Shown here: in pieces, positions 17,699 to 28,096 of the stretch
Layout of the letters: each line of letters starts with the position of its first letter
Numbering within the stretch: position 1 is the first letter of the stretch
NCBI GenBank assembly: GCA_902463875.1
Contig: CABQHR010000003.1
Location: 1-28,103, forward strand
DNA: 28,103 bases
Origin: an uncultured Collinsella sp.
Lineage (GTDB): Bacteria > Actinomycetota > Coriobacteriia > Coriobacteriales > Coriobacteriaceae
Reading direction: 5' to 3'
Notes under the pieces: model-generated
Told to the model about the DNA's origin: nothing
The model's input: only the letters and a program-made list of their open reading frames with translations
Databases searched by the model: none
Translations under genes and position numbers: made by a program

Positions 17699-17797
17699 GG
17701 CAAATCTCTGGTGCCCCCGGGCGGATTCGAAAACTCCCCCCGCGAGGAAATTGGTGACGCGGGTGTCGACGGTCCGAATCCTGCCCTTAGACCAGAA

Positions 17798-17826: not shown

Positions 17827-17925
17827 GATATTCCTCTGGTGCCCCCGGGCGGATTCGAAAACTCCCCCCGCGGGGAAATTGGTGACGCGGGTGTCGACGG
17901 TCCGAATCCGGCCTTTAGACCAGAA

Positions 17926-17960: not shown

Positions 17961-18009
17961 TCTCTGGTGCCCCCGGGCGGATTCGAACCGTCGACACCCG
18001 CTTTAGGAG
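17961..18009. other. Left attachment site (attL), 49-bp direct repeat
   Basis: These 49 bases are identical to 28048-28096. They run from just outside the tRNA 3' CCA to the end of the anticodon loop. Flanking bases differ immediately on the inner side (GTCATGG here against AGCGGTG at the right end). A tyrosine integrase gene begins 237 bp inside, as expected for site-specific insertion into a tRNA gene. Confidence 0.9.
17965..18009 (-). pseudogene. 3' half of tRNA-Arg (displaced fragment)
   Basis: This fragment runs from the anticodon loop (CTCCTAA) through the T-arm and acceptor strand to an encoded CCA. The 5' half is missing here and is replaced by element DNA, so it cannot give a tRNA. 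It keeps the downstream terminator at 17926-17954. Confidence 0.85.
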
Positions 18010-18245: not shown

Positions 18246-19553
18246 TTGGAAAACAGAATCAAACCAACCGCAAAGGGAACCTCTGAGCCCATCAAAGGAA
18301 AGCCGGGCTCATTCAAGATTTACTTTTCCCTCGGGCGAGATCCAAACTCCGGAAAGAACGGCAGCAAGGTTAAGTATCTCAAAACGCCTAAGAGAACCAT
18401 CCACTGCAAGAGTAAGAACCCCAAGAACTGGCCCAGCGAAGTCGCGAACGCTCTTGATGAGTACCGCAAGGAACTTGAGAGCTACGAACCATCTAGGGAT
18501 GCACCTAGCACCGTTGCAGCGTATGCCGAAGACTTCCATGTGCTCCGGGAGAATTCTTTTGGCTCGCCCCTCTCGTATCAAAGAGAGGGTTACGACGTAC
18601 GACATATTCGTGAGCTGTTCGGAGACATGCCCCTAGACGACCTGAGACCCGATGACATTAAGCGCGCCTATGCGGACGCTCGTTCAAATGGAAGATTCAC
18701 CGATGCCGAGATTCGTCGCATTCACGTTAAGCTTAAGCAGGTCATGCAAGATGCCTTTGAAAACGAGCTGATTAGCCGAAATCCTTGCATAGGCATCAAG
18801 CTTCCAAAACCAGATCTTCGAGCACGCAACTTTCTTCCCCCTGATGAGCTACCGAGATTCACCGAATGTTTGCTCACCGAGCCAATGGGGCCCATGACCG
18901 TCTGCACCATGCTCATTTTCCACCTTGGGCTGAGGAAAGGCGAGGCATTAGGACTCAGCTGGCTCGATTACAACCCCGATGCCATGGAGCTCCGAATTAT
19001 CCGCCAGTACACCAGCGACAAGACCTTGAGGCCCCCGAAATCTGAAATGAGCAGACGCATTCTCTCTATAGACAAAACGCTGGCCGACTACTTGGACAAA
19101 TGGAAGGACATGCAAAACGACATATTCAAACGTCGTGGGCTGGAACGAAAGGACACCGATCCTATCGTTCACGCATTCAGCGTTGGAAAGGATGCCGATG
19201 GCTTCCGCCGTATAAGCGTCACCCGGCCAGAGGGGCACAACTATTCCCGATGGTTTAGGGACTTCTGCGTCGACAACGGCTATGGAAGCTACAGCAACGT
19301 GACTAGACAGTTTATGCGCGACGGCAAGCTCCACACACGCGGGACGGGATACTCGGGACTCGTTCCTCATGGCCTACGTCACACCGCCGCGACCGCCCTC
19401 GTGGCGAGCAATGTCGATTTGAAGACCGTTCAAGCGCGAATGGGCCATGCCTCCGCAAGTACAACAGCAAACTTCTACACCCATGCAATCAGAGCAAACG
19501 ACCGTAATGCAGCGGAGGTGTTCGAGAAGATTAGTGATTCGTCTAACAAATAG
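18246..19553 (+). CDS. int: Tyrosine-type site-specific integrase
   Basis: The start is TTG at 18246, five bases after GGAGGA, giving 435 residues. An N-terminal AP2-like arm-binding region comes first (GSFKIYFSLGRDPNSGKNGSKV). A core-binding helical domain follows at about 85-200, then the catalytic domain. R230 (HLGLRKGEALGL), H375 and R378 (PHGLRHTAAT), H401 (MGHAS) and the nucleophile Y411 (NFYTHA) are all present, so the enzyme looks intact. It recombines attP with the tRNA-Arg 3' half and, with an excisionase, reverses this. The weak start codon and the large hairpin in its leader suggest low, controlled expression. Confidence 0.97.
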   Translation: MENRIKPTAKGTSEPIKGKPGSFKIYFSLGRDPNSGKNGSKVKYLKTPKRTIHCKSKNPKNWPSEVANALDEYRKELESYEPSRDAPSTVAAYAEDFHVLRENSFGSPLSYQREGYDVRHIRELFGDMPLDDLRPDDIKRAYADARSNGRFTDAEIRRIHVKLKQVMQDAFENELISRNPCIGIKLPKPDLRARNFLPPDELPRFTECLLTEPMGPMTVCTMLIFHLGLRKGEALGLSWLDYNPDAMELRIIRQYTSDKTLRPPKSEMSRRILSIDKTLADYLDKWKDMQNDIFKRRGLERKDTDPIVHAFSVGKDADGFRRISVTRPEGHNYSRWFRDFCVDNGYGSYSNVTRQFMRDGKLHTRGTGYSGLVPHGLRHTAATALVASNVDLKTVQARMGHASASTTANFYTHAIRANDRNAAEVFEKISDSSNK

Positions 19554-20396: not shown

Positions 20397-20639
20397 ATGC
20401 ATTTTGCAGATGGCCCCAAGGTTGACGCCATTTCCGCAGGCATCAACCTCCGTCGCACTGGCACCAAGCGCATTTTGAGCCGTCTCGACGTTCAGATTCT
20501 CACCGGCATTGGCCAGTCAAGTGCCATCCGACTCATGAAGTCGACTCATCATTCTTTTCGCATCGCCAACCAATATTTTGTCATGGAGGAAGACCTCTTC
20601 GATTATTTCAGGTCTTTGGCTGATGAGGCGAGCGAATAA
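20397..20639 (+). CDS. Xis-like / MerR-type small DNA-binding protein
   Basis: The ATG at 20397 has GAGGAG seven bases upstream, giving 80 residues. The sequence LSRLDVQILTGIGQSSAIRLMKSTHHSFRIANQYFVMEEDLFDYF has the layout of excisionase-type winged helices: a helix-turn-helix, then a short wing with an aromatic strand, then an acidic-aromatic helix. Excisionases bend att DNA and bias the integrase toward excision. They may also regulate transfer genes. The stop overlaps the helicase start by one base (TAATG), tying it to the replication/mobilization operon. A role as operon regulator rather than Xis is an open alternative. Confidence 0.65.
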   Translation: MHFADGPKVDAISAGINLRRTGTKRILSRLDVQILTGIGQSSAIRLMKSTHHSFRIANQYFVMEEDLFDYFRSLADEASE

Positions 20640-21535
20640 TGCAGTGTCCAACCCCCAACCCTTTCATTTTCGAGTCCGATAAGCTCGATGAGCATCTCAG
20701 TGCTCTTGAGGGCGATCAACCCATCGCTCTCTTCGGACTCAAGGCCCTTAACGACATCCTCGGCGGCGTCCATCCCGGGCTGAACTACGCCATCGGAACC
20801 GGCCCCGGCAAGGGCAAAACGACCTTGGCCTTGCAGGAGACCGATAAGCTTGCGAACGACGGACACCCGGTAATTTATGTTTCCGCCGAGCTCCCTGCGC
20901 ATAAGCTCTTGGAAAAGAGCCTTGCACGGCTCAGCGGCAACGAGCTCGCCCTTTCTGAGGTCGCCGATGCGGCGGCGGAAGACCATCCCAAGCACGAGGC
21001 CTTCGAGGCCGCGCTCAACAGGTACCGCAACCGCATCGCCCCAAACCTCTGCATCACCGGCCCATTGAACACCGTTGAGCTCTCAAACCTCGTTGGGTTG
21101 ATAGCACGCGAGCGCAACGAAGCTCCCATCGTTTTCGTAGACTACCTTCAGCTCCTTGCCTGCGGTATCACGGCGGGTCAGCAGTTCATCGACGAGCGCT
21201 TGGCAATCACGGCGTGCGTAAAGGGCTTGCGGGAAATCTCGAACCTCTATGGTTCGCCCATCATCGCCCTGAGCTCGACCATACGCAAGTCCTACGAGTC
21301 TGGAAAATCGAGCAAGCCCAACCTCGGTATGTTCGGCGGCTCTTCGACGGTCGAATACAGCTTCGACTCCGTCCTCTTCCTTGCCGATGACGACGGGAAA
21401 CCCGACCATGCCTTTGAGCCGCCCGCAGTCGGCACCCCGCTTAAGCTCATCGCTCTCAAGAACCGTTACGGCACGTTAGGCGAAGCTCGGCTCGACTTCG
21501 ACGGAGCCCACGCCACCTTCCTCGATAGGAGCTAA
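20639..21535 (+). CDS. DnaB-type (RecA-fold) helicase domain protein
   Basis: This 298-residue protein corresponds to the C-terminal motor of DnaB helicases without the primase-binding N-terminal domain. It has Walker A GPGKGKTT at 55-62 (K60), VSAELPAHKL in the Walker A' (H1a) region, and Walker B VFVDYLQLL with D168. The SSTIRKSYESGKSSKPNLGMFGGSS-like segment is the DnaB DNA-binding/arginine-finger region, and KNRYGTLGEARLDFD is the C-terminal signature. In mobile elements such genes serve replication of the excised circle or strand unwinding during transfer. It overlaps the Xis-like gene and precedes mobC by three bases. Confidence 0.88.
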   Translation: MQCPTPNPFIFESDKLDEHLSALEGDQPIALFGLKALNDILGGVHPGLNYAIGTGPGKGKTTLALQETDKLANDGHPVIYVSAELPAHKLLEKSLARLSGNELALSEVADAAAEDHPKHEAFEAALNRYRNRIAPNLCITGPLNTVELSNLVGLIARERNEAPIVFVDYLQLLACGITAGQQFIDERLAITACVKGLREISNLYGSPIIALSSTIRKSYESGKSSKPNLGMFGGSSTVEYSFDSVLFLADDDGKPDHAFEPPAVGTPLKLIALKNRYGTLGEARLDFDGAHATFLDRS

Positions 21536-21538
21536 GCG

Positions 21539-21889
21539 ATGCGCAGCGCCAGCAGGACCGCGCACATCAACGTTCGTATGACCGATGGGGAGCGGGCCGC
21601 AATCGTGGCCCGCTCTTCCTCTTTCGGCATTCCCCCATCAACGTTCATGCGCGAGGCCGCGCTCAATATCGGAGAGAAGCCCGTCAAAGTCGCCGATGAA
21701 ACCACCCTGCGGCAGATGCTCGTCGAGATGAAGCGTCAGGGAAACAACCTCAATCAGGCCATGCGCTCCATAAACGCCTATGGCGTCGACCGGCAAACGG
21801 CCACCCAACTCGCAATCGCCGTCCAATCTATATCGAAGACGGTTTCCGAACTCTCAACCCTTCTGTCAAAAGCAAAGGAGCGGTTATGA
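21539..21889 (+). CDS. mobC: MobC-like relaxosome accessory protein
   Basis: The 116-residue product begins with a short beta strand (AHINVRMTDGERAAIVARSSSFG), the N-terminus of a ribbon-helix-helix fold. It continues with the MobC pattern PPSTFMREAALN and LVEMKRQGNNLNQAMRSINAYG. MobC proteins bind oriT next to the relaxase nick site and help melt the DNA. TAGGAG stands just upstream of the start at 21539. Its stop overlaps the coupling-protein start (ATGA), so relaxosome and coupling protein are co-translated. Confidence 0.9.
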   Translation: MRSASRTAHINVRMTDGERAAIVARSSSFGIPPSTFMREAALNIGEKPVKVADETTLRQMLVEMKRQGNNLNQAMRSINAYGVDRQTATQLAIAVQSISKTVSELSTLLSKAKERL

Positions 21890-23799
21890 AAAGCAGGATG
21901 CTCGCCGCCCTCATATCATCCGTCGTCATCGCGTTTTTTGCCTATCCGATTCTTGCAGCGCCTATCGACGATATTGTTTCTGGAGTTGAGCCCAATGCGT
22001 CGGCCCTCCCCTCGGCGCTCAATGCGGCCACGGTTTTCAGCTGGTGGCTCTCGGGCGCACTCATCACCCATATCGCGGGAACCGTCCTCACCTTCCTTCT
22101 CGCGCTTTGCATCTGCTCCTTCATCGCCTACTCAAGCGCCCTCAACGCCCGCGCAGAGGACGGCGGGGTACTCGGGGACGCGCACGTGAAGTCCGGTCTA
22201 GAGGTGGTCAGGGGCTCCATGACATGGAACGGCTCGGCAAACCCCTCGTCGCGCGGGTTCGTCTACGGGTTCACCAGATGGCACGGCAAACCTTGTTACT
22301 TATTCGAGCCGAAGAAGATGGTTTTTGCTTCCGGGGCCACAGGGTCGGGCAAAAGCCGCTTCCTTTATCTACCCTCTATCGATTTGCTCTCGTACGGCGA
22401 CGGCTCCAATGGTTCCGAGCCCTTGACGCTCGTCGTTTCCGACGTCAAGAACGAGCTCATAGAGCTCACGGGCGATGAGCTCACTCGACGCGGCTACCGC
22501 GTCCTCCTGCTCGATACTCAGCATCCCTATCGCGGCCAAAGATTCAACCCGCTCAAGCAGATCATCGACCTCCATGCCGAAAGCCGCGACCAAGAGGCCG
22601 AGCAGGCGGCGGATGCCATCGCGGAACTCGTGGTTCAGGATGATGAGAAAGGCAAGGGCTCGCATTGGACCGCGTCCGCGCGGGGCCTCCTGTCCGCCCT
22701 TGTCTTGCTCGTCGCCATGTCCGACGAGTGTCCCAAGGCGGCGAAACACCTTGCGACCGTCTGCGAGGTGCTGGACCGCGGCACCGAGGCGGAGGGCGAC
22801 AACCCGGCCGAACCGCTCAAGGGCGTTTTCCGCGCCCTGCCAAGCGGGCACCCTGCCAAGAACAGGGCGTCGCAGTTCGTCTCGTCGGGCGGCAACGAGC
22901 TCAGGAGCATCCTCTCGACCCTCAAGGTGGCGATCCGCCCGTTCTCGTCGGCCCCGGTCGCATGGATGACGTCAGGGTCCGACATCGACCCTCGCGCGGT
23001 TCTTGAAACCAAGAGCGCCGTGTTCCTCCACGTGCTCGACGAGGGATCGCCCTACAACTGCATCGCGGCGATATTCCTCTCCCAGCTCTGGGCATCCGTC
23101 CAAACCGTCGCCGACTCCAACGGCGGAAGACTTCCGCGCCCCGTCCAGATTCTCGGCGACGAATGGGGCAATCTGCCCCGCGTCGAGTGCCTGCCCGCCC
23201 TGCTCAGCCTCGGGCGGAGTTACGGTGTCTTCTGGACAGGCGCAACCCAAGACATATCACAGCTCAATAAATATGGCGAAAAAGATGGACGCAGGAAGAT
23301 CCTCGCGAACTGCGGCGTCAAGATCGCCATGAAGCTCGCCGAGGAGGAGGACCGCCGGTACTTCACCGAGCTCATCGGCAAGACCACCCGCCACACGCAG
23401 GGCACGAGCAGCAGCAAGGCAGCGTCGGGCTCGTCGGCATCGACCTCCTACAACGAGAGCGCAGACGACGTGATACACGCATGGGAATGGCGCGACATGG
23501 CCCCGGACAGAGACGGGATAATCGTCGTCAAGCACGCAGACAACGGAATGCCCGCCGCGCACGCCGGGGTCTTCCGCGCACCCGTTGCCGATTGCACCAA
23601 GACGCCCACGAAGGAGCATTTCGATCTCGGGACACCGGAACACGAGACGGAAATGCGCCGCGATTATCAGAGGAGGTTGGATGAGGCCGCAACTGAAAAG
23701 ATGGGCGAACACGTCGACCTTTGGTGCCCCAAATGGCCCAAACCGAAAAAGGCAGACACCGAATCGACCGGCAAGTTCACCGGTCTCTCGCTCGACTAG
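21886..23799 (+). CDS. VirD4/TraG-type type IV coupling protein
   Basis: This 637-residue ATPase has two N-terminal membrane segments (about 5-25 and 50-85) and a cytoplasmic RecA-like motor. Walker A GATGSGKS is at 150-157 (K156) and Walker B ILGDEWGNLP has D425-E426. VVSDVKNEL, GATQDISQL and the intervening all-alpha domain region are typical of VirD4 family members. Coupling proteins carry the relaxase-bound DNA strand to a mating channel. Because no channel genes are found in the element, this protein would dock to a channel supplied by another element. Many small mobilizable elements lack a coupling protein, so this one is better equipped than most. The C-terminus (about 550-637) is charged. 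Confidence 0.95.
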   Translation: MKSRMLAALISSVVIAFFAYPILAAPIDDIVSGVEPNASALPSALNAATVFSWWLSGALITHIAGTVLTFLLALCICSFIAYSSALNARAEDGGVLGDAHVKSGLEVVRGSMTWNGSANPSSRGFVYGFTRWHGKPCYLFEPKKMVFASGATGSGKSRFLYLPSIDLLSYGDGSNGSEPLTLVVSDVKNELIELTGDELTRRGYRVLLLDTQHPYRGQRFNPLKQIIDLHAESRDQEAEQAADAIAELVVQDDEKGKGSHWTASARGLLSALVLLVAMSDECPKAAKHLATVCEVLDRGTEAEGDNPAEPLKGVFRALPSGHPAKNRASQFVSSGGNELRSILSTLKVAIRPFSSAPVAWMTSGSDIDPRAVLETKSAVFLHVLDEGSPYNCIAAIFLSQLWASVQTVADSNGGRLPRPVQILGDEWGNLPRVECLPALLSLGRSYGVFWTGATQDISQLNKYGEKDGRRKILANCGVKIAMKLAEEEDRRYFTELIGKTTRHTQGTSSSKAASGSSASTSYNESADDVIHAWEWRDMAPDRDGIIVVKHADNGMPAAHAGVFRAPVADCTKTPTKEHFDLGTPEHETEMRRDYQRRLDEAATEKMGEHVDLWCPKWPKPKKADTESTGKFTGLSLD

Positions 23800-23808
23800 G
23801 AAGAACGC

Positions 23809-24747
23809 ATGACAGCGATAAAGCAGACGAGCGTATGCAGCGAGAGGCACCTCTCCCGCCTCAAGGACTATCTCTCATGGGACAGGGAGAAGGCGCTCGC
23901 GCACGACACCCAGAACATCATCGATGAAGAGCGATGGTTCCAAGAGATGTCGGACACCCGTAAGGCCATGGGCCATGACAGGCCGGGAAAGGCCGGTGCC
24001 AAGTGCACCTACATGCAGCACCAGATACTCGGCTTCCTCCCCGACGAATGCGACCTCAACGGCGGCAAGATGACGCCGGAGATGTGCATGGGATACGCGA
24101 GGAACTATGTAGCCGAGCGCTATCCGAACCAAGAGGTCGTTATGGTCCTGCACCGCGAGCGCTGCCGCTCCGACGGCACCGACCGCTACGCCGTGCACCT
24201 CGGCATCAACCGCAGCGACCTTGAGACGGGCCGGAGGCTCGACGAGGGCCCCGCACGCAAGGCCGCTGCCGCACGGGTGAAGACCGTCCGTGCCCTGGAC
24301 GAGAGGTATGGGCTCAAGCAGCTTGAGCGCGGCAAGGCCAACTCGCGCATCCACGCGAGGCAACCGGGGAAAGAGGAGCGCGACATGGCACGCAAAGGGC
24401 GGGCCGAGCGCTCCGAGAACGCCCGCGTGCGCGAGGCGGTCGCACGCCGGATCGAGGAGGTCGGGCGCATCCGGGAATGCCCCGATCGATTGGGCGAGCT
24501 TGAACGACGGCTCAAGGACGACGGCATCGAACTCGCCAAGTCCAAGGGCGGAAGCCTCCAATACCGCTACTACTCGAAGTCGCTCGGTGGCACGAGGAAG
24601 GTCAACGGCGGAAGGCTCGGCTTCGCCGCCAGCCGCTCGTCTGGCCTCGTCGTCCGTTTCACGCTGCGCGGGATAGCGACGGCAATGAGGGCATTCTGGG
24701 AACTGGAACGCAAGGCGCAGGAGAACCAGAACGGGCGCGGGGACTGA
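23809..24747 (+). CDS. MOBP-like relaxase (mobilization nuclease)
   Basis: AGGAAG lies six bases before the ATG, and the product has 312 residues. The N-terminal half follows the Gram-positive MOBP pattern. A candidate nucleophile Tyr lies in RLKDYLSW (Y21), the next conserved block is YMQHQILGFLP (H71), and the metal site is VLHRERCRSDGTDRYAVHLGIN (H115, H130, N134). In the canonical motif the last block reads HxHxxxN; here the first His is replaced (YAVH). The C-terminal part is a charged helical region ending in a small folded domain (SLQYRYYSKSLGGTRKVNGGRLGFAA). It would nick oriT and stay linked to the transferred strand. The gene is last in the operon and is followed at once by a terminator and the candidate oriT. 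Confidence 0.85.
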   Translation: MTAIKQTSVCSERHLSRLKDYLSWDREKALAHDTQNIIDEERWFQEMSDTRKAMGHDRPGKAGAKCTYMQHQILGFLPDECDLNGGKMTPEMCMGYARNYVAERYPNQEVVMVLHRERCRSDGTDRYAVHLGINRSDLETGRRLDEGPARKAAAARVKTVRALDERYGLKQLERGKANSRIHARQPGKEERDMARKGRAERSENARVREAVARRIEEVGRIRECPDRLGELERRLKDDGIELAKSKGGSLQYRYYSKSLGGTRKVNGGRLGFAASRSSGLVVRFTLRGIATAMRAFWELERKAQENQNGRGD

Positions 24748-24756
24748 GCGCTTGAG

Positions 24757-24785
24757 CCGGGACGCAACAGGCGTCCCGGTTTTTT
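24757..24785 (+). terminator. Rho-independent terminator after the relaxase gene
   Basis: CCGGGACGC and GCGTCCCGG pair around AACAG and are followed by TTTTTT. It is placed ten bases after the relaxase stop. Confidence 0.9.
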
Positions 24786-24825
24786 GGCGAGAGCGACTTC
24801 GGAGCGGTTCGCCCCCGCCGCAGGC

Positions 24826-24863
24826 GGCAAGATGATTCCGTGCAACGGAATCCATATCTTGCC
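24826..24863. other. Candidate origin of transfer (oriT) hairpin
   Basis: GGCAAGAT pairs with ATCTTGCC, and inside it GATTCCGT pairs with ACGGAATC, leaving a three-base CAT bulge and a GCA loop: 16 bp in 38 nt. The right arm contains TATCTTGC, one base from the IncP/MOBP nick-region consensus YATCCTGY. It lies 79 bp past the relaxase stop, a usual place for oriT. The structure is seen directly; the oriT role is inferred. Confidence 0.5.
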
Positions 24864-25170
24864 TGCACGGAGCGAGCCAGTTGCCAAAGCAACGCGAGCC
24901 CGGGCAGGTGAGCGCCGGTTGAGCCGACGCCGAGGAGACGCGACCCATGGGGAGCGTCGCACGATGGCGCTCGGTGACCCGGCGCGAGAGGCCCCGCTCG
25001 GCGACCACGGCGGAGCGATGGCGACTTCTGGAAGCCATCGAGCGCAGCCGTTCGGCGGGCGGGGCCGGTGTGAGCGGAGGCGAACGAAACGCGACCCTGG
25101 GGAGCGTTGCCAGGGAGGCGCAGCGAGAGCGACGGTGCGTCGCGGGGGTCCCGCCCATAAGCGGGACCCA
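24864..25170. other. Structured non-coding tract inside the mobile element (possible RNA or extended oriT)
   Basis: About 300 bp without a credible gene but with many nested stems. GTTGC/GCAAC is at 24880-24893. A rod is built from GGCCCCGC (24990-24997) with GCGGGGCC (25059-25066), ACGGC (25007-25011) with GCCGT (25047-25051), and CGATGGC (25016-25022) with GCCATCG (25034-25040). A nine-bp GGGTCCCGC/GCGGGACCC hairpin is at 25146-25169. A near-direct repeat (ACGCGACCC, then GGGGAGCGT) occurs at 24938-24961 and 25089-25111. GGAGCG recurs five times between 24801 and 25106. The tract is bounded by terminators on both sides. A frame across it has no ribosome-binding site and an Arg/Gly/Ala-biased translation, so it is not called. 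Confidence 0.5.
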
Positions 25171-25198
25171 TCGGCCTCAAGATCGATCGTTGAGCATT

Positions 25199-25232
25199 AA
25201 GAAAGCCCCGACCAGATGGTCGGGGCTTTCTT
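25199..25232. terminator. Strong bidirectional terminator
   Basis: AAGAAAGCCCCGACC pairs perfectly with GGTCGGGGCTTTCTT around an AGAT loop. It gives a U-rich 3' side in both directions, so it can end any plus-strand transcript of the structured tract and the minus-strand cargo operon, whose last stop is at 25279. Confidence 0.9.
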
Positions 25233-25278
25233 AGCTATAGGAACGGATAGATGTCGACCGGCTGCTTCTATACCTTAA

Positions 25279-26535
25279 TTAGTTCGCTTTCGTAGCACCG
25301 CAGGAAGAGCACTTGTAACCGGTGGTCACGGTTTCATCATAAGCCGCGCTTACCTGCACCTGCTCGTCATAGGCCGCTTTATCAGTCACCGTTTCGTAGT
25401 AACCCTGCTTCACGGTAACGTAGGAAGAATGATATCCACCACAATTACCACCGTTCAAAGCAGAGTTTTTTAAATGCCCCCAAGGGTCTGACGTGATATC
25501 CGCACCGCACTGGTTGCAGATATAGTGCTCCTCCGTCACCGGGTCATGCCATACCTGATGCGTCACCGCGTCATGGTGGACGGTCTTGTACTGAGCATCA
25601 TGGTGGACGGTCTTTGTTTGAGCGACCCAGTTGTGCTGGTGCGCCGAGTTATCGTCCTTCTTCGACGAACTGCCCGAATTGGAGTTCGAACCGGAGTTGC
25701 TGCTGTTGCCGCCACTTGGCTTGCTGTCGGATTTGCCATCGTCCTTCTTGGACGAGGAATCGCCCTTGCTGCCGGAACCGGTATTCCCATCATCCTTCTT
25801 GCTATCGGAGGTCTCCGGGGTCTTCGCATCGGACTTATCTTCCTTGGCGGTTTCCTGCGCCTGCTCCGTCTCCTTCTCGACGGCATCGGTGTCGACGTTC
25901 GGGTTCTTCTTGATGTTATCCTCGAACTTCTTCACGACCTCGGCACCCTTGTCTCCGGTCAGGGTGGAATCGCCCTTCTTCACGGCTGCTGCAACGTCCT
26001 TGGCGATGGCGGTCAAGTCATCCTTCGCCACCTTGTCCGCATCCACCTTTTCGAGCGTGATAGTAGTGCCAGCTGTCTTTTTGTCCGCCTTCCCTGCCTT
26101 GACCTTCTCGGTTGCGACCTTGTAGGTGGAACCGTCCGCGTTCACCGGAGGGATGAGGGTGACGGTGTATGTACCGGACTTACCGACCTTCACGGTCACC
26201 TGCTTGTTTGCGGCGATGGCGGTGTAGAAGTCCACATCACCTTCCGCTCCCTCGATATGGGCGATGACGGGCGTGGAGGTGTCCGCATCCCATCCATCGG
26301 CCTTCACCTCAAGGGAAAGCACCATGTCCTGCTTCTCCTCATCCTTTGACTGGGACACCGCAGGGACGTTCGACTTTCCCGCCCATCCGGCGTGTGCGAT
26401 GGCGTACCCGCCACCTCCGATAATGAGCGCCGCGCATAAGATTCCCGCTCCTGCCGCGCAGACTTGCTTGTGAGAGAACTCTCGTCCGAAAAGTTTGATT
26501 CGACCGCTATTTCCCATTCGCGAACACCGGATCAT
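25279..26535 (-). CDS. Membrane-anchored surface protein with C-terminal zinc-ribbon-like repeats (cargo)
   Basis: The start at 26535 has GGGAGAG eight bases upstream; MGNS at 26517 is an alternative. The 418-residue product has one membrane helix (about 24-46) and then a beta-sandwich-like domain at about 75-162 (VTVKVGKSGTYTVTLIPP). A helical part follows, then a Ser/Lys/Asp/Gly-rich low-complexity linker at about 230-296 with repeated SSKKDD. The C-terminal region is His- and Cys-rich: HNWVAQTKTVHHDAQYKTVHHDA, then CNQCG (340-344), C365, and a final CSSCG (409-413). This would be exposed outside the cell and may bind metal. The gene overlaps the stop of the upstream lipoprotein gene, so the two form one operon. 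I do not know the function. Confidence 0.75.
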   Translation of the reverse strand: MIRCSRMGNSGRIKLFGREFSHKQVCAAGAGILCAALIIGGGGYAIAHAGWAGKSNVPAVSQSKDEEKQDMVLSLEVKADGWDADTSTPVIAHIEGAEGDVDFYTAIAANKQVTVKVGKSGTYTVTLIPPVNADGSTYKVATEKVKAGKADKKTAGTTITLEKVDADKVAKDDLTAIAKDVAAAVKKGDSTLTGDKGAEVVKKFEDNIKKNPNVDTDAVEKETEQAQETAKEDKSDAKTPETSDSKKDDGNTGSGSKGDSSSKKDDGKSDSKPSGGNSSNSGSNSNSGSSSKKDDNSAHQHNWVAQTKTVHHDAQYKTVHHDAVTHQVWHDPVTEEHYICNQCGADITSDPWGHLKNSALNGGNCGGYHSSYVTVKQGYYETVTDKAAYDEQVQVSAAYDETVTTGYKCSSCGATKAN

Positions 26536-27313
26536 ACATCGTCTCTCCCAGCTTCAGAACCAGGCTGTCGTTACGTTTCTCGAGGGTGTAGGCCACCGTC
26601 GCTCCATCGACTGTCAGCTCGCCCTTGTAGACAAGCGGGCGCGGTGTCGAGTCGGTATCCTTAGCCCTCTGGTCTTTGACCGTGAGGCTGTATTTTCCCA
26701 AATGGTCCGATGCGGCCCATTCGTCATCGCTGGGGCCCTGGATGAATAGATAGCCCTTTTGGTTATACGAGGCCTTCTTGAATGCAATCTTTCCGCTGTC
26801 GAAGTTGATTTCCTCGGGACTCGCCATGGACTCCGGCCGGTTCGAGCGTTCCCATTCCTGCGATTCAAGCAGCTCTTTGACGCGAGCGACCGCCTTACCG
26901 GTGTAGTCCTCGTAGTACTTCTTCGCATCGTCCTCGCTCAAGAAATAACGCTCTCCATATTCCTCATCCCCCGACGGGATATAGGCGTCTTCGTCATCGA
27001 CTTTTTTAAGTGTCAATGTTCCAAGCTCGCTTGAGTTCAGGACGATGTTGTCATCTTCCTGAGTCCACGTTCCCGAGGATTCAAATGAGCCGGCGTAGTG
27101 CCAACCGTCATCGTTATCAAAAACGATGGTTGTTTCGGAGCCAATCGCGTTCTTCGTCATCTTCCCGAGAGCAACGTTGTTACAGACTGAGATGTAATAG
27201 AGGGTTTTTCCCTTTACCCCTGTCTTTCCGCATCCGCTCAGGCCGCCTAAACCCATAAGCGGCAAAAGGCCGATGGCACCTAGAAAACCGCGTCTTGATA
27301 CGTTTGTTGTCAC
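26507..27313 (-). CDS. Tat-exported lipoprotein (cargo)
   Basis: The start is taken as GTG at 27313, which has AGGAAG upstream and places a twin-arginine signal right at the N-terminus (SRRGFLG, residues 6-12). A hydrophobic stretch and a lipobox LSGC with C28 as the lipidated cysteine follow; a longer frame lacks these features at its start. The mature part (about 240 residues) contains two similar beta-rich segments, GTWTQEDDNIVLNSSELGTL and GELTVDGATVAYTLEKRNDS, which resemble the repeats of small lipocalin-like bacterial lipoproteins. A helical region (EDDAKKYYEDYTGKAVARVKEL) sits between them. It overlaps the surface-protein gene by 29 bases. A TACAAT on the minus strand at 27383-27388 could be its -10. 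Confidence 0.75.
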   Translation of the reverse strand: MTTNVSRRGFLGAIGLLPLMGLGGLSGCGKTGVKGKTLYYISVCNNVALGKMTKNAIGSETTIVFDNDDGWHYAGSFESSGTWTQEDDNIVLNSSELGTLTLKKVDDEDAYIPSGDEEYGERYFLSEDDAKKYYEDYTGKAVARVKELLESQEWERSNRPESMASPEEINFDSGKIAFKKASYNQKGYLFIQGPSDDEWAASDHLGKYSLTVKDQRAKDTDSTPRPLVYKGELTVDGATVAYTLEKRNDSLVLKLGETMYDPVFANGK

Positions 27314-27439
27314 GACATTCTTCCTTTCTTTCTCAATGGTGCTTGCGGTTATCCCCCTGATCAAAAAAGAGACCATAAGAGCATTGTATTGCAAATTGTC
27401 ACTTATATAGGTGTGACTCATATAGGGCTAACCCAAATC

Positions 27440-27468
27440 ATTGGCACCACTGGCTAGGAGGTACCAAT
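27440..27468. promoter_or_regulatory. Inverted repeat over the XRE gene ribosome-binding site
   Basis: ATTGGCACC (27440-27448) and GGTACCAAT (27460-27468) match at eight of nine positions. The loop and right arm contain the AGGAGG ribosome-binding site, and the right arm ends in the start codon at 27467. It may be an autoregulatory operator or an mRNA hairpin that limits translation. Confidence 0.45.
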
Positions 27469-27697
27469 GATTCAATTAGATGCAAAGATGAGAGTCGGGT
27501 TGCGAATAAAAGAACTGAGGAATGCACTCGGCTATAGTCAGGAAACCCTTGCGTACTCTATAGAGATGTCCCGGACTTACTTTGCCGAAGTCGAAATCGG
27601 CAAGCGAAACATATCAATTGAAAACATCGACCGGATCGCCCGAGGACTAGGCGTTTCTCTGAAGGAATTCTTCGACTCTGACCTGTTCATCGAATAA
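27467..27697 (+). CDS. XRE/Cro-family transcriptional regulator
   Basis: This 76-residue protein is essentially one helix-turn-helix domain: GLRIKELRNALGYSQETLAYSIEMSRTYFAEVEIGKRNISIENIDRIARGLGVSLKEFF. AGGAGG stands six bases before the ATG. It is divergent from the cargo operon across a 153-bp gap, which makes that operon and itself the most likely targets. It may also be a stand-alone controller of element maintenance. A second operator pair was not found. Confidence 0.92.
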   Translation: MIQLDAKMRVGLRIKELRNALGYSQETLAYSIEMSRTYFAEVEIGKRNISIENIDRIARGLGVSLKEFFDSDLFIE

Positions 27698-28047: not shown

Positions 28048-28096
28048 TCTCTGGTGCCCCCGGGCGGATTCGAACCGTCGACACCCGCTTTAGGAG
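28048..28096. other. Right attachment site (attR), 49-bp direct repeat
   Basis: Identical to 17961-18009. Here it forms the 3' half of the intact tRNA-Arg gene. The crossover must lie within these 49 bases, probably in or near the anticodon loop. Confidence 0.9.

Follow-up and report, generated by a model that had tools for sequence, protein, structure and literature searches.

A predicted origin of transfer with a covarying hairpin leader in a mobile element of Collinsella

The window (the whole 28,103-nt stretch of Collinsella DNA analyzed here) carries an integrated element of about 10 kb, in which a densely folded tract (24786 to 25234) lies between the relaxase gene and the next gene on the minus strand. 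What does such a tract do for the element? It might specify an RNA, offer protein-binding sites as duplex DNA, or work as a folded single strand during transfer. An earlier note, made by a model from the sequence alone, had proposed two options, a structured RNA that carries its own terminator and an extended oriT/relaxosome platform; the oriT option was supported, and the oriT could be placed, whereas a stand-alone RNA gene appears unlikely.

The element lies between two identical direct repeats, and the genes for the integrase, DnaB-like protein, NikA-like protein, coupling protein, and relaxase follow one another in this order on the plus strand, all inside the repeats (Table 1). The NCBIfam family nearest to the coupling protein is the CD1115 family, with a score of 223.9 bits under a cut-off of 250. 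No channel component was found among the element open reading frames (ORFs) tested (9 against Pfam, 10 against NCBIfam), so the element is probably mobilizable rather than self-transmissible. Its closest named relatives are two Collinsella aerofaciens contigs (class Coriobacteriia). A tRNA-Arg(cct) gene is present in three of the five related loci for which the surrounding region was scanned; a tRNA scan of the window found none. A 26-bp piece of the att repeat occurs in four copies (17706 to 17731, 17834 to 17859, 17962 to 17987, and 28049 to 28074), three of them in tandem at the left end with a spacing of 128 bp, and the extra copies may have been left by previous integrations into the same tRNA gene. 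Two cargo genes on the minus strand (25279 to 26535 and 26507 to 27421) matched no Pfam or NCBIfam family; genomes G010, G035, and G093 carry relatives of one or the other. The protein collection contains 462 homologues of the relaxase at E ≤ 0.001; IMG/VR gave no match, and PDB gave only chance β-lactamase matches (E ≥ 1.5). The metal-binding motif of relaxases is usually HxH; read by eye, the window relaxase has AVHLGIN and seems to carry alanine in place of one of these histidines (AxH), and the relaxase of locus L122 reads AHVHVYVN.

Table 1. Positions of the element's genes and ends and of the features of the tract in the window copy
Feature	Position	Strand	Basis
att direct repeat, left (49 bp)	17961..18009		identical to 28048-28096
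Tyrosine integrase	18246..19553	+	PF00589, E 5e-17
DnaB-like helicase domain protein	20639..21535	+	PF03796, E 1e-22
NikA-like relaxosome accessory protein	21539..21889	+	PF21983, E 8e-15, above cut-off
Type IV coupling protein	21886..23799	+	PF02534, E 2e-41
Relaxase (MobA/VirD2 family)	23809..24747	+	PF03432, 26.8 bits, cut-off 24.6
Hairpin and six T 3' of relaxase gene, terminator-like	24756..24785	+	sequence; unlisted by consensus scan
H1, stem GGCGA/TCGCC enclosing GAGCGA..GAGCGG	24786..24813	+	paired in 9/9 aligned loci
H2, hairpin abutting CAAGAT	24815..24827	+	stem excess in 25 loci
oriT inverted repeat CAAGAT-(ATTCCG..CGGAAT)-ATCTTG	24828..24861	+	core in 26/29 relaxase-bearing class genomes
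Predicted nic ATATCTTG^C	24861..24862	+	similarity to nic sites of MOBP type; relaxase gene 5' in 26/26 loci
H3, hairpin CCTGC..GCAGG, 5' end of presumed transferred strand	24862..24908	+	5-bp stem
Hairpin unit U1, tip GACGC-GA-CCCATGGG-GA-GCGTC	24908..24990	+	covarying stems, tandem GA
Rod, three stacked stems, tip GATGGC..GCCATC	24990..25066	+	covariation; model R2
Hairpin unit U2, GTGAGCGGAG-stem-GA/GA tip-stem-GCAGCGAGAGC	25070..25130	+	covarying stems, tandem GA
9-bp GC hairpin GGGTCCCGC..GCGGGACCC	25146..25169	+	sequence
Inverted repeat between tract and next minus-strand gene	25198..25233		17-nt perfect, 25198-25214/25217-25233
att direct repeat, right (49 bp)	28048..28096		identical to 17961-18009

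The plus strand of the tract folds to -257.1 kcal/mol against -203.9 ± 7.1 kcal/mol for 100 dinucleotide shuffles (z, -7.53), and the minus strand has a z of -7.01, which bears out the dense structure claimed by the earlier note. Among 200-nt windows across the element (n = 67; mean z, -0.95), the lowest value, -6.3, belongs to the one that begins at 24750; the windows from 24900, 25050, and 25200 reach -3.3, -4.8, and -5.1, and the element ends fold well too (-3.6 to -4.7). The note had also picked out the rod and the GC hairpin at their present coordinates, five copies of GGAGCG, and a near-direct repeat (24938 to 24961 against 25089 to 25111); all were recovered, and the repeat turned out to be the tips of U1 and U2. 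The note saw no credible gene in the tract; the 138-amino-acid plus-strand ORF has no Pfam family. The GC hairpin is seen in G038 and G010, and in G015 with one arm base missing. As to the claim that the tract is bounded by terminators, these can be read by eye in this copy; however, a consensus scan of 24700 to 25300 lists none, and the right-hand inverted repeat is imperfect in G010 and absent from G038 and G015, placing it outside the conserved feature. No Rfam 15 family matched the tract at the gathering threshold; seven sub-threshold matches at E ≤ 1 all fall in 25163 to 25250, on or beside the right-hand repeat, and none is convincing. A plain-sequence consensus scan gave no promoter-like site in 24700 to 25300, and none of 50,697 phage records and 72,556 plasmid records matched the tract by blastn.

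Homologous loci resolve the left part of the tract. Blastn with the tract gave matches in 19 of 197 genomes of relatives and, inside the genus, in 11 of 43; weak matches exist in other families (e.g., G102, G112, G157, and G184). Eight genomes of the genus have a relaxase at E ≤ 1e-100, and in all of them a core lies downstream of it on the relaxase's strand; an alignment of nine loci exposed the order of this core: H1, H2, CAAGAT, the inverted repeat, and ATATCTTGC. The H1 stem takes G-C, U-A, and wobble forms among the nine. A covariance model of the core built from this alignment (R1) matched 13 of 396 genomes of the class, whose class name is inferred from kinship relative to the nearest genome in the set; eight of these were in the model and five were new, namely G019 and G042, which nearly duplicate G025, along with G045, G195, and G291, which are more distant. 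The same search of 296 genomes of the phylum gave 0 matches and had no known positive, so that the empty result is uninformative. With the relaxase protein as query, 29 genomes of the class matched at E ≤ 1e-20, and in 26 of them (the 13 R1 genomes and 13 more) a core of the form CAAGAT-repeat-ATCTTGC stands beside the relaxase; no such core was found in G336 and G382, whose relaxases have 36% identity, and the third of the shortfall is G372, whose DNA was not included. The scan of these wider loci requires ATCT[TC]G, and some of its matches, away from any relaxase, are due to chance; in G008, G012, G004, and G395, where the repeat arms are short or interrupted, the core was accepted by its place and by the abutting hairpin where present (just 3 to 4 bp in G395 and G004).

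In the core, pairing is kept while the sequence of the repeat changes. The repeat arms are very unlike across loci and yet complementary (ATTCCG, TGTAGGTACGTACAAA, GGAATGT, CGCGGCGTCA), and G093 carries a compensated change to CGAGAT..ATCTCG. In the nine-locus alignment covariation of the core is modest, with 4 of 22 pairs changed on both sides and 93.9% of cells paired (89.7% when shuffled). Over 25 loci the H2 stem averages 6.64 bp, compared with 3.47 bp at random positions, reaching at least 6 bp in 17 and only 3 bp in 3; the excess is modest for H3 (4.72 against 3.83 bp). The long oriT repeats of G031, G195, and G045 (given jointly as loci L069, L067, and L068) share an apical stretch near AAACCGGAGGAACGACGGTT on differing arms, which is possibly a protein site.

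MOBP-type oriT sites, such as those of RP4, R64, and the Ti borders, have a YATCYTG-like nic consensus, and we take their form to be a repeat, a few bases, YATCYTG, and a cut after G, the same form as at the window core. The nic core is mostly CATCTTG or TATCTTG, with the complementary CAAGAT on the far side; A stands where Y is expected in three or more loci (G406, G003, G040, and G093). An inverted repeat just 5' of a YATCYTG-like sequence (24828 to 24862) and an adjacent MobA/VirD2 relaxase gene with a NikA/MobC-type accessory protein are thus both present, and the first third of the tract is very probably an oriT. Since the repeat is nearly palindromic, we infer the nicked strand from two features, the spacing and the position of the relaxase gene 5' of the nic.

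The leading region extends from 24862 to about 25170, and its hairpins stand 3' of the predicted nic in the order H3, U1, rod, and U2. Most hairpin units share the plan given for U2 in Table 1, with stems that vary between and within elements. The covariation in homologous elements for which the earlier note proposed to look was found in the rod. In an alignment of nine loci and 24 pairs, 94.4% of cells are paired against 80.4% in shuffles; 10 of the 24 pairs have changed on both sides, which 1 of 500 shuffles reaches, and the covariation score is 0.419 against 0.162 (0 of 500). When the structures were slid by 1 to 3 columns, 27 to 51% remained paired. When all hairpin units were aligned with MAFFT, differences in loop length put the tips out of register, and stems were counted from tip-anchored arms instead: the 13 distinct stems average 6.0 of 7 pairs against 4.16 with arms permuted (0 of 5,000), a result that is biased upwards, the 27 hairpins behind these stems having been picked by eye, partly since their arms pair. 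The rod alignment and the held-out scan described next are firmer tests.

The pairing that is kept favors one strand. Mismatches in the stems are G·T in eight cases and A·C in two. The typical tip, GC-GA-CC-(3-4)-GG-GA-GC, contains a tandem G-A mismatch step, and we scanned for it in a loose form (GA, two pairs, a loop of 3 to 6, two pairs, GA, and a stem of at least 5). In 12 loci, the same ones on which the scan was defined, 10 such hairpins lie on the presumed nicked strand (in 8 loci) and 0 on the complement; 7 of the 10 are distinct, and one (shared by G031 and G035) fits the form by a pairing other than the U1 tip. Eleven held-out loci gave 6 against 0, in 6 loci, where 1,000 shuffles gave a mean of 0.13 and a maximum of 2; 5 of these 6 are distinct, and the sequence common to G008 and G040 differs in having an AT-rich stem. 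The total is 16 on the presumed transferred strand and 0 on the complement, in 12 distinct sequences of which 10 have the standard tip. A hairpin of the scanned form is missing from 4 of the 12 and 5 of the 11 loci, and the form occurs elsewhere too, with 51 matches in 899,764 strand-bases of the context loci, a count that includes the tracts and takes overlapping loci repeatedly.

Fold energies of the leader are more variable. Its z is more negative on the plus than on the minus strand in 10 of 12 loci with RNA parameters and in 8 of 12 with DNA parameters, the latter giving no clear strand preference. G002 and G025 have weakly folding leaders (z, -0.4 and -1.5), and for G127 and G291 the better fold is that of the complement. 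G010 is without the rod, and in G025, G042, G045, and G291 the hairpins are rearranged or of another kind, indicating that no single stem is essential. The covariation, the strand bias of the tandem-GA hairpins, and the excess of G·T over A·C mismatches together point to selection on the fold of one strand, the presumed transferred one.

The leader keeps to the nic rather than to a gene. The relaxase gene is on the 5' side of the nic in all 26 loci, on the same strand in 18 and divergent in 8, and the leader is 3' of the nic whichever direction the relaxase gene points. In G031, G035, and G291, 2.0 to 2.9 kb of other DNA, which in G035 includes relatives of the window genes 26507 to 27421 and 27467 to 27697, separates the relaxase from the oriT, and the leader is still at the nic; in G007 the oriT and leader lie upstream of, and divergent from, the relaxase operon, with their order unchanged. 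A covariance model of the rod (R2) found nine places at E ≤ 1e-10 in the 396 genomes, all beside an oriT; eight of the nine had built the model, so that what it adds independently is the match in G007 and the finding that strong matches do not occur elsewhere. In G093 it found nothing at default search settings (0 of 1), and an unfiltered search of that locus gives a partial match; a weak match on contig 115 of G127 was dropped, no oriT being seen there by eye. G135 (L122), whose relaxase is 33% identical over residues 28 to 144, has two tandem-GA hairpins (the complement has none) behind a different repeat, one that ends in TTCCTGG; this oriT was read by eye where the core scan found no usual core. 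Kept across these layouts and behind another oriT, the leader appears to belong to the transferred strand and not to a gene or to one relaxase.

Two loci show the parts in other states. In G002 (L071, 8020 to 8659) the relaxase match consists of two overlapping pieces in different frames; the gene looks broken, while the oriT and leader are well kept. In G026 (L004, 1501 to 1631; L073) a decayed piece of the tract retains the rod end, U2, and the GC hairpin, with no core beside it and no relaxase match at E ≤ 1e-20 in the genome; this single case fits decay after loss of mobility.

Our reading, to which we give a probability of about 0.6, is that the tract is an oriT followed by a structured leader that acts as folded single-stranded DNA. 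Its foundation lies in sequence comparison, which supports two things directly: a hairpin-flanked repeat ending in the predicted ATATCTTG^C beside a MobA/VirD2-family relaxase and a NikA-like gene, and, 3' of this putative oriT, a series of covarying hairpins in which evolution evidently acts on pairing and favors one strand. It is probable on these grounds that the leader acts as the folded transferred strand. NikA would bind the inverted repeat of the oriT, and the relaxase would nick the plus strand after G24861 and remain on the 5' end at C24862. The plus strand would then enter the recipient with the hairpins first and the relaxase gene last. The hairpins would fold in the single strand, most likely as a single-strand origin; a host enzyme would lay a primer at them, and the complementary strand would be made leftwards across the re-joined nic. 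The att site would be double-stranded only once recircularized, and synthesis from the leader would reach it last. Multiple stem-loops on the transferred strand, as in a single-strand origin, are indeed present. Priming is our first choice because the geometry matches that of ICEBs1 sso1, and the element also encodes the DnaB-like helicase domain protein; resting on position and structure, it may be the leader's job at somewhat below even odds, and other possible roles would be to protect the 5' end or to give the host a signal.

Among the other explanations, a structured regulatory RNA from the plus strand, controlling transfer genes in the new host, for instance, and lying beside the oriT by chance, fares best. 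RNA from the plus strand would leave the same covariation as folded DNA, and the G·T bias and the plus-strand fold z values speak for it. Against it stand the empty promoter scan, the right-hand terminator that relatives do not conserve, a position that tracks the nic and not one gene or the relaxase transcript, and the lack of an Rfam family; we consider it unlikely, and the first three points likewise make the stand-alone RNA gene of the earlier note unlikely. A little less likely is an extended double-stranded relaxosome platform whose repeats bind NikA, the relaxase, or the coupling protein. The NikA-like gene and the near-direct GAGCGA/GAGCGG repeats inside H1 would suit it, and duplex inverted repeats are bound by PcfF, an oriT accessory protein (PMC6514445). 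However, a GA/GA step would read TC/TC on the opposite strand, tandem-GA hairpins are also found with the different oriT and relaxase of G135, and stems that change sequence with pairing kept are the reverse of what a duplex site needs and are left unexplained by a purely double-stranded platform.

A Frpo-type single-stranded promoter in the folded plus strand is improbable. Frpo elements are folded leading-region DNA (PMC11541004), and the next gene (25279 to 26535) is on the minus strand, so that the plus strand is its template; however, polymerase from the tract would run leftwards, away from this gene, whose start is its right end, and no sigma-70-like -35/-10 pair was found in 24700 to 25300 by a scan that reads plain sequence and not a folded promoter. 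A REP-like palindrome family or a degenerate protein gene, to which the repeated units and a complementary strand largely free of stops in the eight loci examined might point, is very improbable given that no strong rod-model match lies away from an oriT in 396 genomes, that one-base changes of loop length between close relatives shift any frame, and that the plus-strand ORF has no Pfam family.

A folded transferred strand behind an oriT therefore remains the preferred reading, and the leaders could tentatively be seen as a modular class of single-stranded DNA: nic-proximal, covarying tandem-GA hairpins that accompany the oriT cores of Coriobacteriia mobile elements, are separable from them, and work only as folded transferred strand, in priming, protection, or early signaling in the recipient. 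In the open-licence literature we found no description of this oriT family or leader and no described oriT for Collinsella or its class. The results provide a recognizable oriT for a relaxase family with hundreds of homologues and, through covariation, evidence that structure is under selection in DNA that is probably single-stranded. They also offer a small module that can be deleted to study how the incoming conjugative strand is primed in gut Actinomycetota. With MOBP oriT sites and the oriT-PcfF-PcfG system of pCF10 the locus shares a MobA/VirD2-family relaxase, a NikA-like gene, and a repeat a few bases 5' of the nic; it differs in the far-side CAAGAT, the abutting hairpin, a structured leader of about 300 nt, and, as read by eye, a relaxase with AxH where HxH is expected. 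Like the Frpo/ssi promoters of F-like plasmids, the leader is folded DNA in the leading region, whereas it has no promoter hexamers that we found and a different position relative to genes. The closest counterpart is sso1 of ICEBs1 (PMC4595007), which is downstream of oriT, orientation specific, and predicted to form three stem-loops, and whose placement the authors explain by att staying single-stranded until recircularization. Unlike sso1 and rolling-circle single-strand origins, the present leader is built of GC-rich units with tandem-GA tips, and it is likened to them by position and structure rather than sequence: in each case a few hundred nucleotides by the relaxase gene, downstream of oriT, form several stem-loops whose structure is apparently more conserved than their sequence.
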